Below are positions 3,001 through 10,086 of a stretch of DNA of 64,000 nt, one piece after another; positions within the stretch are counted from its first letter, which is position 1; every line of letters starts with the position of its first letter. The translations under genes and the position numbers were made by a program. The notes under the pieces were generated by a model, which worked only from the letters and a program-made list of their open reading frames with translations, was not told the DNA's origin and ran no database searches. Source of the DNA: Heterostelium album PN500 (Eukaryota > Evosea > Eumycetozoa > Acytosteliales > Acytosteliaceae); assembly GCF_000004825.1 (NCBI RefSeq), contig NW_008805072.1, forward strand, positions 1,246,435-1,310,434, read 5' to 3'.

Positions 3001-3620
3001 AACTCATTCGATTGTTGTTCCATCTCCTCTTCCTCTACATTACATTTCTTATTAAATTCAATATCTACATCTTCTTCTTTTTCTTTATCTTCTTCTTCTT
3101 CTCCTTCTTTTTCTTCATCTTCCTTCTCCTCTTCTTCATCTTCTTCATCTTCATCCTCCTCCTCTTCACTGTCACTATCTAAATCCATATCATCTGTATT
3201 TCTTCCTCTCTTTTGATTGGTAAGTTTCTTCTTATTCTTTGTCTTTTTCTTTGTTTCTGATTTCTTTTTCGATTTTGCAGAGTTGTTTTTTGCTGATTGT
3301 TTCTTGTTGACTGGCAGTTGCTTATTGACTGAGGTGTCTACAGTGATGATTTGTGCCAGTCCAACATTTGAAGAGATATCTTTTAGGCGCGACAATAACG
3401 ACTCTAGTTGATCTGCAGAGATAACGTTTGCGACAGAATCCAAAATCTCTTGATCAAACTCTGTCAACTCTTGTCCTCTCCATATAGTATTACATAATTT
3501 ATCTGTAATTTGATCTAAACCAACTGATAGAAATATCTCAAATATCTTCTTTTCATTTAAAACTTTACTATTACTGCCACTACTACTATTCGTTTTCTTT
3601 TTACTATTATTAGTAGACAT
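1..3620 (-). CDS. ncapd3: Condensin II complex subunit D3 (NCAPD3), N-terminal part, truncated by window edge
   Basis: This is the HEAT-repeat regulatory subunit of condensin II, which compacts mitotic chromosomes. Three exons are visible: 3620-2001, 1914-805 and 723 to beyond base 1, all joined in phase 0 across GTAAAT/GTAAGT donors. About 1,151 residues are present, and family members are usually about 1,500, so the C-terminus lies left of the window. Exon 3 carries the family hallmark: FITLGKLCLGDDRLAKKC, then RNNVMIVMCDLCIRYTQLVD, then a VRRQTLILLTRLLQED stretch. Residues about 100-200 are a Lys-rich then Asp/Glu-rich low-complexity insert, and a second Gln/Asp/Asn-rich insert lies near 2640-2760. 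Two E2F-like sites sit 139-171 bp upstream of the ATG. The start is the first ATG after an AT-rich leader. Identity is firm; the splice sites are my own assignment. Confidence 0.92.
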
Positions 3621-3758
3621 TTTTAACTTAATTAAATATCTTACTAAATAATAGTAATTCTATCTATCTATATCTATCTTTTTTTAAAAAATAATTTAAA
3701 TAATATTCAAAAAAAAACAAAATGTGATTCAATCAATTATTATGTTAAGAATGAATAG

Positions 3759-3791
3759 TTTTCGCGCTCTTTTTTTTTGAATTTTTGGCGC
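3759..3791. promoter_or_regulatory. Pair of E2F-type sites upstream of NCAPD3
   Basis: TTTTCGCGC at 3759-3767 and TTTGGCGC at 3784-3791 both fit the E2F/DP consensus TTTSSCGC and are 17 bp apart. They stand out in a GC-poor intergenic stretch. They lie about 140-170 bp upstream of the minus-strand NCAPD3 ATG, with the HutD-like gene's 3' end on the other side, so NCAPD3 is the natural target. Function is inferred. Confidence 0.55.
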
Positions 3792-3882
3792 GCTGACTTC
3801 TCACCACCCAAAGTTTCAAAACACTTTAAAAATGTACTCATGCTTATTATTATAATTAGAGTTATCAAAGTAAAAATTATAA

Positions 3883-4854
3883 TTAACAGGATATTTGATT
3901 TATATATACAATGATTATAGTTGATTGTTGTGATTGATTTGTAAGTTGTAGTGTTTGGTTTAGTTCAGCGTCAGTGATATCTTGGAGTAGTAGAGTGTGT
4001 CCAGCTTTGACTCTGACCTCTTGATAGGCGTTGTCTTCTTTCTCTTGTCTTATAATGAGGTCGGTGTTGTATGAGTAGACCGCTATGTTTCTGTTGGTTA
4101 TCTGGTGTGGCTGGTTGAGGTGTTGCTGCTGGTGTTGCTGCTGGTAGATCGCCTCGTCCGGTGTCAGTGCAACGCTCGACGAGTCCAAGCCGAGCGTGAA
4201 CGTCTCGCCACAGCTCTGGAAGTGGTGCACTCGGACGAGGTGCGTGGCAACCGCGTCTTTGGTGAAGATGTTAAAGTCTGTCGATTCGTCTTGTGGCGGG
4301 TGTGTCACCACGTAGCCAGAGTTGTGTGGCGACGACACTGGCGATCCATTGCTATTGTCACTGCTGCCAGTCGACTCCACCGATAGCTGCATCATTCTCG
4401 ACGAAATAGCATTGCCACTGCGTCTCAGACAGTCGGTTTCCGACGGAATAAAGATAGAGTCGGTCTCCCAGCCACCACTGAAAGTATAGGGTTTGAAGTG
4501 TTCCAACTGCACCGGTTGCAACGGTTTCTGTCTGTGGAACAACTGCAGTTGGTTTCCTTTCATTAGCACCAGTGATCTTGTATAGCCATCGAATGTAGAG
4601 AACGGTCCAACCGTACTGACAGTAGCTATACTCATGAGTCAGTTGAACAATATCAAATGATCATTTGTCAGATTCACTTAAACAACATTGTTGATCTTGT
4701 CATTCTTTTCTTACTTACCGGAAGATATTCTCCAGGCGAAAGGATCCTGTATTGTCATTGACTCTGGTTCGATGTGAATTTGCACTGATTTACCTTTACC
4801 ACTCTTCCAAACCATATGTTTGTAATTTGATGAATCCTTTGCATACCACTTCAT
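3883..4854 (-). CDS. HutD/Ves-family cupin-like protein
   Basis: The predicted 292-residue protein is encoded by two exons, 4854-4719 and 4625-3883, joined in phase 1. After splicing, the sequence FAWRISSATVSTVGPFSTF continues into DGYTRSLVLMKGNQLQL, the core of the HutD/Ves family. That core has a WR(A/I)S strand, a GPFS-F-G-R turn and a (T/V)LL-G strand. A DFNIFT motif later matches the family's D-N-M-T segment. Bacterial HutD/Ves proteins are about 190 residues. This one is longer because of a Ser/Asn-rich insert (around 4310-4400) and a Gln/His-rich tail. HutD lies in histidine-utilisation operons in bacteria, but its biochemical role is not settled, so I give no reaction. The family call is good and the physiological role unknown. 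Confidence 0.8.
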
Positions 4855-5618
4855 TTTTCAAATAAAATAATCACACTTATTGTTTAAATATTCAGATTAA
4901 TTAACTAATAGTTAATAAAAATTACTTTTTTTCCTATAAGAATTTATAATTAATTAAAAACATATAAAATGAATAAAAAAACCACACAATTAAATAAACA
5001 TGTAACCCTGGGTGTTTTATTTTTTTTTATTTTTAATTTAATTTTATTTTTTTGATATTTATTTCTTTTGTTAATAATAAAATGAATGGACAAAAAACAA
5101 TGAATTTTCATAAACAATTAAATCTAGATTTGATCAATTTATTATTATGTTGATATAATAATTATTAGTTAAAAAGAAATATAATGTTATAAACATTGTT
5201 TGTGAATTTGCCAATATTGCAAATCAATGCAGAGCTTTCAGTATGGCATTTGGGTGTAGAAGTTAAACCTGAATGAATAGGCGGCATTGGTGTTTCATAT
5301 CACTTCTTCTTATCTAAATCATATATTATGAAAATCTTACTAGTTTTACTCGGATTGGAATGTTTTGGTTTAAGTTTTGAGTATAAATCCAATACAATTA
5401 ATTAGAAAGATATGAAGTTGTTTTGTAAAGAATCAATAATAATATGTCACTGATATCTATATGGCAAATCGTTGTGAACAGACAATGTCTCACATTTACA
5501 ATAAATAGTTACATATGACAGTTGTTTTCGAAATTTCGAGAAAAAAAAAAAGAAAAAATGATATGTGTGAGATGAAAAAGAGTTTTGTTTGAATTTATTC
5601 AATAAAGTAAATAAAAAT
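4855..5618. other. Intergenic, no gene seen
   Basis: This AT-rich spacer separates the divergent HutD-like and MATH/USP-like/RING genes and presumably holds both promoters. It contains oligo-T and oligo-A tracts, as at 5021-5055. A somewhat more GC-rich patch around 5215-5295 has no recognisable ORF, tRNA or other RNA. Confidence 0.6.
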
Positions 5619-8418
5619 ATGTTTAATATTAGTAGTAATAGTAATTATGTACAGTTAAATGAAAATACATGGTTTCCTCTTACTCAGAGGAGAACCGATT
5701 CGGTTACTTTGAAGATGAAACTGAATCCGCGACAGGCACTCAAGACATTCACATTGCCCAATCAAGTACCGTTTACATTGATGCTAGTCGACAATCCATA
5801 TGAAAGTCTCTCTTTCTACTTACATTGTCAAACTGGAAATCATAGCACCGTCAAAATAGATTATGAAATAACACTTAAACATCCTGAATATAAAAATAAA
5901 GATATTAAAAAATGTATGTTAATTATTACTACAGGTAAACGTTGTATAAATATTATATAAACAAACTTAAAAATTATTATTATATTGATTGATTGATTGA
6001 TTGATTGATATATAGGTGGATCATTTGAATTCAAAGAAAGTAATTCGTATATATATGAAGAGGATTTCTTGGATTCTTCAAAAGTTAAAAGATACACAAA
6101 CAACAATCAAGAGATGACATTGGTGATAAAGATCAATCAGGTGCAGGAAAAGAAAAATGGAATATTCAATCATATAGTGGATGAGATCGATAAGGTCAAT
6201 AAGTTGTTTAAGTACAATGAGATGGCACAGCAATCACTGATACACTCTTTCTACTTTATGCCTTTCTTGAAGCGTTGCATCCTCGAGATACCACGATCCA
6301 ATTTGAATGCAATCGTCGAGTCGGAACCACAACAATCGCGAAACTGGGTGAGTGAGTTGCAGTCGGTGCTCTACCGGATGTCGAAAGGACAGGATATCAC
6401 TGAGAATCGGCTGACCTCTGCCATCAAGATGTCGGGTTCACTCGGTCTGGCGCCGAGCAACATCTACGAGTTCGAAACAATCACCACGAAAATGATCAAA
6501 AAGATTGCGCAACTCTCGGACGAAGCGAACAAGGAAGAATTGATCTACCACTTCTATATGGGACTGGGCGGTGTCTACAACGAGACCGATATGCACGCCA
6601 TCAAGGTGGAGGGAGACATCAACTTGGACATACTGAACTACATGAAGCGCGAGTCACTAATGGTACGAATGATCGAGCAGTTCCCACCGGTACTCTTCAT
6701 TTCACTGCCGACCAGTGATATCGCGGGTAACGACCATCTCAGAAACATATCGACCACCTTCCGAGAGGATTTCTACTTTGAGGAGGTGTTGACCGAGGAC
6801 GAAGTAATGGATCCGCGATCCAAAGAGAATCACTATATCCTCTACAGTGTTTGGTGTCATGAGCATCCCTCAAACAACGCTAAACAGGGTGAGTTCTTTA
6901 CTTTCTTGCGACCACTGGATCAACCTCACTGGGTTAAAGTCTCATCGAAATCAGTCGAGGAAGTACATCACTTTAACTATGTATTGGGTTGCTCAGCTGG
7001 AAAAGCAAGATCTGAACTTGCCGATAATTCAAGTGGCTTCCCTCAGGAAGCAAGAAGTTGGAAATCAACAACTAGTTATGCTTGTAAGTTGATATTTAAA
7101 TAACAATTATTATTATTCATACAGTGTTCATATATTCTAATAACTTGTTTTTTTTTTGTTTTAGATATGTTGGTATACGTTTTAGAATCAGAGACAAAGA
7201 AACTCTTTAATGAAGAGGATTCAAGATATAATATAAATTTAGACGATCAGTATGTTTTTAAATATTTATATTTGATGATTATGTTATTAATTAAACTCTC
7301 TCTCTCAATCTTATTTATAGATTATCAAAAGAAAAAAAGTTATCATATGATGAGATGAATGATGCAATGCAATCAAAAGATGTTAACACCACGACAACAA
7401 CAACCACTACTACCACCATTTCACCAGCAGCAGAGTTGCTACCAAGTATTGATGATCTTTCATTGGAACAAATAGAAGTACCAAATTTCACTGGAATGGA
7501 TGAATTAAAGATATTCGGAAGTCCTATAGATGATAGTTTCATTAAGAAGGGTAATGGAAAGAGTAGCAGTAATAACACAACATCCACTACTACTACAACG
7601 AGTAGCAGTGGTAAAAGTAATACAACCAATGCATCATTAAATAAATATGAGAGACGTTTGGGAATATCAAAACTACAGAATGAGAATCTAAAGAAGGATG
7701 TAGAGTTTATAAAGAAGAATACCGATACAAACAAGAAAGAGCTGGACAGACTGAAAAAGACATCCGATGACTATCGCAAACAAATAGACCAGTCGAATGA
7801 CAAACTGAAAAAGGCAAACAAAGAGAGAGACAACATTAGAAGCGATGTCGATCGTCAGAAATCGTTTGCCAACAACCAGCTCAAGTCGCTCGAAGCTCTG
7901 AGAAAGGAGTTGGCTGCCACCAAAAATCAAAAATCCGCGGTCGAAGCTGAACGTGACACCATCCACAAACAAGTGCAAGAAGAGAAAAAGAAATCCAACA
8001 AAACCGATCCAAAGTTACTTCAAAAGCGTTTGGAAGCAATGGAGTTAGAGAACAGTCAGCTCAGTGGCGAATCATCTCTTACACAATTGGATCATGAACA
8101 ACTAACAGTTATTGGACATAAACTTAGTAAATCTATATTCAACATTAATGAACAACTTTTGACACTTGTAAATATGAATTCACATAATAATATATATATA
8201 TACTAATAATAGAAAGATAATAATACTAACATTTATTTCTTATTATAATATTATAGAGTAAAGCAAGAGTATGTGTCATTTGCTCAGAACAAGCGAGAGA
8301 AATATGTTTCTTGCCATGTAGTCATTTCGTTACTTGTTTGAATTGTTCGACTATCATTACAAAATGCCCAATCTGTAGAAAGGATATTAATAAAAAGATT
8401 AAAGTAATTAATAACTAA
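5619..8418 (+). CDS. MATH / inactive USP7-like / coiled-coil / RING protein
   Basis: The five exons are 5619-5934, 6016-7083, 7165-7249, 7321-8167 and 8257-8418, and all phases agree, giving 825 residues. Residues about 15-145 look like a MATH domain: YESLSFYLHC, then a late DFLDSSKVKRY and LVIKIN. Residues about 170-475 follow the USP7 catalytic-domain pattern. Markers are FPPVLFISL, ENHYILYSVWCHEH, and YAYMLVYVLES, which forms only after splicing of exons 2 and 3. The catalytic Cys position reads QQSLIHSFYF with no Cys. The GHY motif with the catalytic His reads GEFF. A Thr/Ser-rich linker and a coiled coil (about 600-735) follow. A C3HC4 RING of the IAP type ends the protein (CVIC, LPCSHFVTCLNC, CPIC; residues 778-815). 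I infer a ubiquitin ligase that uses a dead deubiquitinase fold for binding. The ATG at 5619 is the first in frame. The 3' end is 65 bp from a convergent gene. Confidence 0.8.
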
Positions 8419-8483: not shown

Positions 8484-10086
8484 TTATAAAATGTTACATT
8501 GACTATTTGATTCCATATTTTTTGCATCGACATACAATGTGTTTTCCAATTCTTTCAAATTAATGAATGCAATGTTTGATGTTGATGTGAGAATGAAGTG
8601 ATCTTCATCGATTCTCTCGAGAGAGTAGAAACTATTGACACCGTAGATGTCGATCTTTATGATGGTCGATTTGATTGAACCGACACCGTATCGATTGAGA
8701 AGCTCGATCCGACAATGAATCGTTCTAATTGAATCTGGAAGTCTCTGAAAATCTATTTCCGACTTGTAAAAAGGAAAGCTAAATGTTTCGACAGAGTTTG
8801 GTATCGATCGAATATCGACAGGATGTTCTTGATCGTTTTCGAAAATATAGAGATTCTTTGTCGAAGCCGGTATCACTCCTTGACAGAGATACTGCGATTT
8901 CAAAGAGGGAAGCCGTAGCGTTTCAATGCCAAACGGTAGACTTCCAGGAACCAGTGGCTGATTATAGCCAAACAATACGAGTTCTTTGATGTTGGCCGGC
9001 AAATGGCCGGGTAGAATGGCAGACTTGAAGTCCGATATACAAAGATAGTCGTAGTGAGCATCTCTTGGCAGTACATTCGATTCTACATCGTAGGTACTGC
9101 TGATAGTCAGATGTTTGATTGACGAAGGAATATACAGAGAGTTGGACGTGCCAAACGTAGACAACGACAGATCCAACTTTGTTAGAGTATTAGGGAAATC
9201 GCCTTGTTCCATAAAACCAACTGGAAAATCAACGCTTATCACCAATGACTCCAAGTATGGAAGATGCTTTAAATGTTTGATCCAACTCAAAGGACAATAT
9301 TCAATTGTTGTCAAAGTTACAGGTAGTATTGTTCTATCTATTAAATCGAATTCATAATCTTTAAAGAAAAATCAATATAGAAATTATAGAGATAAGTATA
9401 ATATTAATGAAATACATGACTCTTATAGTTCATGATCGGTATGTTATATACATACTGTATAACAGTAATTTTTTCAAACCTAAAGGAAGATGATTACTCT
9501 GTAGTGGAAAGCTATAGTCTGATAATCCTAGAGTATCAATGTTTGATGGTAAACTACCAGGCTGCAGTTCTAGGTTGTACCTACGCAATGAAACCGTTCT
9601 AACATTTGATCTCTCCAAGTGTGATTTCATTCTAGAGATATCGAAATCTTTTATCTCTAAAAGTGAAACACTACTGAATATAGGTGATATTACTGATTCC
9701 TTCATAAATGTATCTATTGTAAATCAATATGAATATTTAGATATTGACTGATTTCAGTTTGTTCTAATTAGATGATATATACCTGTTGTTGTATAATTTA
9801 AACGATTCTTAAAATGATTAGGATTCTCTACGATATTCAAATTCAATTGTTTAGTGATATTATCTTTTTCACAACAATTGATATAGGAATTGAGAGATCC
9901 ATTCGAGTAATACTTGGCTAGAACCAAATAGTGTAGTCTCTCTTGAAACCAACGTCTACAAACTAGAGTGAATCTGATTCTATCGATATGATCATCAAGA
10001 AAACTGATGATTTTCTTCAACAACAAATGTGATAGTTTAATAAATACATTATTATTATTTGAGTTATCATTATATTCTCTATTCAT
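8484..10086 (-). CDS. F-box/FNIP-repeat protein (copy A)
   Basis: Three exons, 10086-9783, 9713-9456 and 9358-8484, joined in phase 1 each time, encode 478 residues. The N-terminus after an Asn run has an F-box-like helix pattern (KLSHLLLKKIISFLDD, then TLVCRRWFQERL). The rest is built from FNIP/leucine-rich units with the usual PGSLP...I..L and LP.GLK.L spacing, for example LVPGSLPFGIETLRLP. FNIP proteins are a large dictyostelid family, and the F-box suggests substrate recruitment to an SCF ubiquitin ligase. A close paralogue lies immediately upstream on the same strand (10284-11918), so this is a tandem duplication. Substrate unknown. Confidence 0.8.

Follow-up and report, generated by a model that had tools for sequence, protein, structure and literature searches.

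The gene at positions 5619-8418 (+ strand) of a 64,000-nucleotide stretch of the Heterostelium album PN500 genome (contig NW_008805072.1; hereafter the window) raises the question of whether the remains of a deubiquitinase have been joined to a RING domain, and of what such a protein might do. A first-pass annotation had described the product as a MATH domain and a catalytically dead USP7-like domain fused to a C-terminal RING, and had proposed that a substrate adaptor derived from a deubiquitinase was rewired into a ligase. The window gene was compared with the H. album genome (32.9 Mb, 39 contigs), with Pfam, with the PDB and with the open-access literature.

Structure of the Gene

The gene has five exons and four GT-AG introns, and the in-frame joins give 825 codons (825 amino acids; Table 1). 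The introns are 71-89 nt long with a GC content of 12-18%, and the exons have a GC content of 27-44%. The frame of unspliced exon 3 stays open until a stop at 7356-7358, so that retention of intron 3 would yield a protein lacking the RING. The same stop would suit two adjacent genes with wrongly chained exons, namely a pseudo-USP gene that stops near 7358, followed by a coiled-coil-RING gene of its own. This is very improbable because intron 3 (18% GC, GTATGT..TTATAG) keeps the frame and resembles the other three introns, and the gene is preceded by 749 nt at 22% GC (4870-5618). On the - strand, a HutD-family open frame lies upstream of the gene (3886-4638; PF05962, 3.9e-16), and a protein with FNIP repeats, which are typical of dictyostelids, is encoded just downstream of it (8487-9371; PF05725, 5.6e-16).

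Table 1. Exons, introns and catalytic-site positions of the window gene (window coordinates)
Feature	Position	Strand	Description
Exon 1	5619..5934	+	ATG, residues 1-105; stands where USP7 has its MATH domain, MATH weakly supported
Exon 2	6016..7083	+	Tail of the MATH-like region, then almost the entire degenerate USP domain, residues 107-461
Intron 2	7084..7164	+	Splits T|AT in AY|MLVY, last USP strand
Exon 3	7165..7249	+	Final USP strand, start of linker
Intron 3	7250..7320	+	71 nt; separates the USP7-derived half from the linker/coiled-coil-RING half
Exon 4	7321..8167	+	Thr/Ser/Asn-rich linker, coiled coil (about residues 596-735), helix preceding the RING
Intron 4	8168..8256	+	Phase 0; five residues ahead of the first RING Cys
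Exon 5	8257..8418	+	IAP-type C3HC4 RING, short C-terminal tail, stop
Met175	6222..6224	+	Cys position if the alignment is extended ungapped from QSLIH; own reading
Glu398	6891..6893	+	Catalytic His position; GHYY in USP7, GEFF here
Ser415	6942..6944	+	Catalytic Asp position; WLKFDD in USP7, WVKVSS here

Kinship of the Central Domain to USP7

Of the checks named in the first-pass annotation, the HMM search matched Pfam UCH (PF00443) to residues 107-480 with an E-value of 8.5e-9 (35.8 bits against a cut-off of 23.9; profile positions 18-254), although hmmscan of the full 825-residue protein at E<=1 did not list UCH, perhaps because of the coiled coil. Fold prediction speaks neither for nor against a USP fold, the single-sequence AlphaFold model of exon 2 having a pLDDT of 37.

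The USP7 of the H. album genome is the gene at C25, which has MATH, UCH, USP7_ICP0_bdg and USP7_C2 domains. The landmarks on which the annotation had relied (FPPVLFISL, HYILYSVWCHEH and YAYMLVYVLES) are all present in the window protein, align with this USP7 and follow one another in the same order in both proteins. In alignment with the USP domain of USP7, residues 151-500 scored 106 against a shuffle mean of 38.5 (z 12.1, 500 shuffles). Residues 151-490 gave a z of 12.8 against the joined USP7 exons and of -1.4 to 2.2 against 16 further USP stretches from the genome, each taken as the UCH-matched stretch of its locus (300 shuffles each). When USP7 was treated like these stretches and left unspliced, its z was just 3.9, still the highest (next 2.2) but by a smaller margin, so that its lead is due in part to splicing. 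Against single frames of selected loci, z was 4.3 and 6.0 for the USP7 exons, whose raw scores were surpassed by some low-complexity frames. Two-sequence blastp matched residues 328-476 to USP7 with an E-value of 8e-7.

Other searches missed this kinship, which counts against it, or turned up chance matches. No match was obtained by phmmer between the window protein and USP7 or between residues 106-500 and the frames of selected loci, and in whole-genome searches at E<=0.001 the window protein and USP7 did not retrieve each other. When residues 1-489 were searched against PDB sequences at E 1, there was no match; the USP region, searched at E 10, gave five sequences, two of them USP47 (E 0.29, His-box segment) and three unrelated. 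Run with residues 106-500 on the frames of selected loci, blastp gave only a 17-residue reverse-strand match at C29 (E 0.66; z about 6 in the single-frame comparison), which was judged to be chance. In a viral collection, 20 stretches matched USP7 patterns and none was a relative; the single locus that exon 2 picked up (L038) had phage-like frames on the opposite strand and was dropped as chance.

The exon structure provides an independent sign of descent common to the window gene and USP7. In both genes the T|AT of AY|MLxY is split by an intron at the identical place and in the same phase. Four other USPs, the only ones whose last strand could be read by motif, lack this intron. It is also found in a gene of the genome that we call USP47-like, and a USP47-like parent was considered because of this shared intron. 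It was set aside on its z of 1.8, compared with 12.8 for the joined USP7 exons. A smaller comparison, which took six USPs, two of them (L024 and L031) as 109-residue stretches without the His box, gave 3.1 for the USP47-like gene and 11.7 for the joined USP7 exons. The best reading is that the USP body comes from the USP7/USP47 clade and, judged by similarity, from USP7 within that clade. The USP7 descent of the middle domain is thus supported by both the scores and the intron.

Two observations on the parent candidates are recorded here. By our own reading, the exon 2/exon 3 junction of the USP7 gene (L037, 1842-1952, at C25) is not in frame. At C8, about 6.7 kb separates the end of the USP47-like gene (L039, 3452-8609) from a small RING gene on the opposite strand (L040, 5424-5852) that has a coiled-coil-like stretch; this nearness is probably a coincidence.

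Loss of the Catalytic Residues

The annotation had reported that the catalytic Cys is missing and that Glu-Phe stands where Gly-His-Tyr should be, and both statements proved correct. The catalytic Cys position of USP7 falls in a gap in alignments with the window protein, and, whatever the register, the stretch between residues 99 and 193 is free of Cys. The GHYY of USP7 has become GEFF and WLKFDD has become WVKVSS, so that Glu398 and Ser415 occupy the positions of the triad His and Asp (Table 1). No Cys/His pair was found at the aligned positions. The motif QQSLIHSFYF begins at 6228 and GEFF at 6888, rather than at the 6227 and 6889 given earlier.

Loss of the usual triad has precedents. According to the available part of PMC10919355, the pseudo-deubiquitinases USP39/Sad1 and USP52/PAN2 likewise lack the usual catalytic residues in their USP domains, and that part describes no RING ligase fused to them. 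Activity despite the absence of the usual triad is reported there for USP52/PAN2, and the window protein has Cys193, Cys386 and Cys431 within its USP domain, one of which might serve as a non-canonical nucleophile. An active deubiquitinase of this kind is nevertheless extremely unlikely, since the triad His and Asp have also been replaced and the LKRF box is missing.

The remainder of the domain has also diverged. In addition to the loss of the LKRF box in the alignment with USP7, the stretch bounded by the DVQEL-like motif and FPPVL has 74 residues in the window protein against 103 in USP7, a shortening by 29 residues. The DVQEL of USP7 pairs with NIYEF in one alignment, and two others put NIYEF slightly earlier. 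The USP fold is built for holding ubiquitin, and the pseudo-USP might therefore grip ubiquitin already attached to a substrate while the RING lengthens the chain. The Glu of DVQEL is kept as NIYEF in that one alignment, but its Asp and Gln are changed there, and the other alignments, the missing LKRF box and the shortened stretch all count against such a grip. We consider this ubiquitin-reading ligase improbable.

Divergence of this extent, together with the lost USP motifs, would also be expected of a functionless relic that is decaying into a pseudogene. All 825 of the 825 codons are open, however, and exon 2 alone has 355 open codons, where mononucleotide shuffles (n = 1000) contained 21 stops on average and never fewer than 8. 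The splice sites and the zinc ligands of the RING are intact too. A relic is accordingly a quite improbable account of the gene.

The N-terminal Region

The MATH domain of the first-pass annotation stands less firmly than the USP domain. For residues 1-152, PF00917 (MATH) is the sole Pfam family listed, as a partial match of residues 61-100 to profile positions 33-74 that lies below the cut-off (E 0.022). Alignment with the MATH domain of USP7 was weak: its score of 48 (z 2.7) was exceeded in at least 1 of 500 shuffles, the highest of which reached 68. Comparison with four MATH domains of the genome by hhalign was not significant (probability 0.4%), and a PDB sequence search with the N-terminus at E 10 gave no match. 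For the DWGF segment in the MATH domain of USP7, no clear equivalent is seen; by eye it corresponds to GGSF, and one alignment places DWGF otherwise. An N-terminal MATH domain is expected in a USP7 derivative and is likely from context, though weakly supported by these comparisons.

The Coiled Coil and the RING

An intact IAP-type C3HC4 RING behind a coiled coil had been described earlier, and this part of the description was borne out. The window protein matches zf-C3HC4_3 (PF13920) with an E-value of 1.1e-11. The nearest RINGs in the PDB are those of cIAP and XIAP (best E 2e-9), to which the window RING is similar in type and zinc-ligand spacing, with all ligands in place; no BIR domain is listed for the window protein. 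The heptad moment of residues 596-735 was reached in 1 of 2000 shuffles.

A free-standing coiled-coil-RING gene, L010 (C3:1163239-1164027), aligns at 37% with residues 590-824 (E 9.2e-28), and the coiled coil alone aligned with it with a z of 21.9 (500 shuffles). Judged from these alignments, the coiled coil and IAP-type RING of the window protein are homologous to L010. The two genes have the coiled coil, the helix before the RING and the RING in common, and apparently also a phase-0 intron located five residues ahead of the first zinc Cys; in L010 its splice uses a GTAAGT donor and is one of three frame-keeping options. Unlike the window gene, L010 has an open frame that begins with an acidic stretch and for which no Pfam family is listed. 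Another RING (L043, C3:1170321-1170458) lies about 6 kb downstream of L010; the frames look unrelated except for the RING.

The window protein also has weak matches in two Kelch genes, L013 and L014 (E 3.3e-7 and 2.3e-6). Both have a coiled-coil-like stretch followed by a C3HC4 RING at the end, with Kelch repeats where the window protein has the dead USP domain. Tails of this type therefore sit behind different recognition modules in the genome. A K-box-like stretch precedes the RING in L013 and L014 (Pfam K-box about 1e-4, below the cut-off).

Origin and Proposed Function of the Fusion

The fusion anatomy, the loss of the aligned catalytic residues and the presence of the zinc ligands can be read directly from the sequence. 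Each half of the gene apparently carries an intron of a different parent, which argues for the fusion of two gene copies and not for chance chaining of frames. A genuine fusion gene is the simplest account and is well supported.

The window protein resembles USP7 in its landmark order and in the intron within the last USP strand, and differs from the MATH-USP-UBL arrangement of USP7 in the absence of the UBL domains, in the added coiled coil and RING and in a MATH domain that is not demonstrable. The C-terminal UBL/ICP0-binding family of USP7 (PF12436) was found at only two places genome-wide, C25 and C29, neither of which is in the window. The locus at C29 (66-70 kb; L042, about 3300-7500) looks like a second USP7 derivative, with several MATH repeats (30-42% to the MATH domain of USP7) followed by USP7-type UBL/ICP0-binding sequence (PF12436, E 2.7e-21). 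Of the 38 UCH matches in the genome listing, not one is on C29.

As the best explanation, we lean toward a dimeric RING E3 ligase that docks its substrates through a dead USP7 body, put together from copies of USP7 and of a coiled-coil-RING gene. The active site and the C-terminal UBL domains would have disappeared from the USP7 copy, and a low-complexity linker would have come to connect it to the coiled-coil-RING copy. The coiled coil and RING would form the dimer, the RING would recruit a charged E2, and the MATH-like region and dead USP body would together bring the substrate. From the earlier proposal of a deubiquitinase-derived adaptor rewired into a ligase, the USP7 descent, the lost catalytic residues and the real fusion held; the step to a ligase, with the activity and targets of the fusion protein, is what we infer.

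In a special case of this explanation, whose probability overlaps with that of the explanation itself, the dead USP7 body would still bind proteins with which USP7 interacts, as partners or substrates, while the RING would ubiquitinate what USP7 spares. The apparent descent from USP7 suits this idea, gene fusions often join partners, and MDM2 is a RING ligase. USP7 binds MDM2 and p53, as stated in PMC10919355. The missing UBL domains and, by eye, the lack of a clear counterpart to DWGF weigh against it, and we hold this special case to be unlikely. More generally, a carry-over of the specificity of USP7 itself is doubtful, because the LKRF box is lost, the DVQEL-to-FPPVL stretch is shortened and DWGF has no clear counterpart.

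In searches of an open-access library, no listed title or abstract opening described a dead USP7 body joined to a coiled coil and RING, in agreement with the first-pass annotation, which knew of no such architecture; its parts are already known. More speculatively, USP7 may have been taken apart in this organism, one copy becoming the body of a dead-USP RING ligase and the C29 copy keeping MATH repeats and UBL without the USP domain. The fusion might then mark an old partnership of USP7 with the coiled-coil-RING protein, and the ligase might reverse the action of USP7 on its clients, turning an eraser into a writer. The testable partners predicted are the L010 coiled-coil-RING protein and USP7. 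If the fusion protein is made and active, it would be an example from nature of an enzyme that erases a modification being reused to aim one that writes it.
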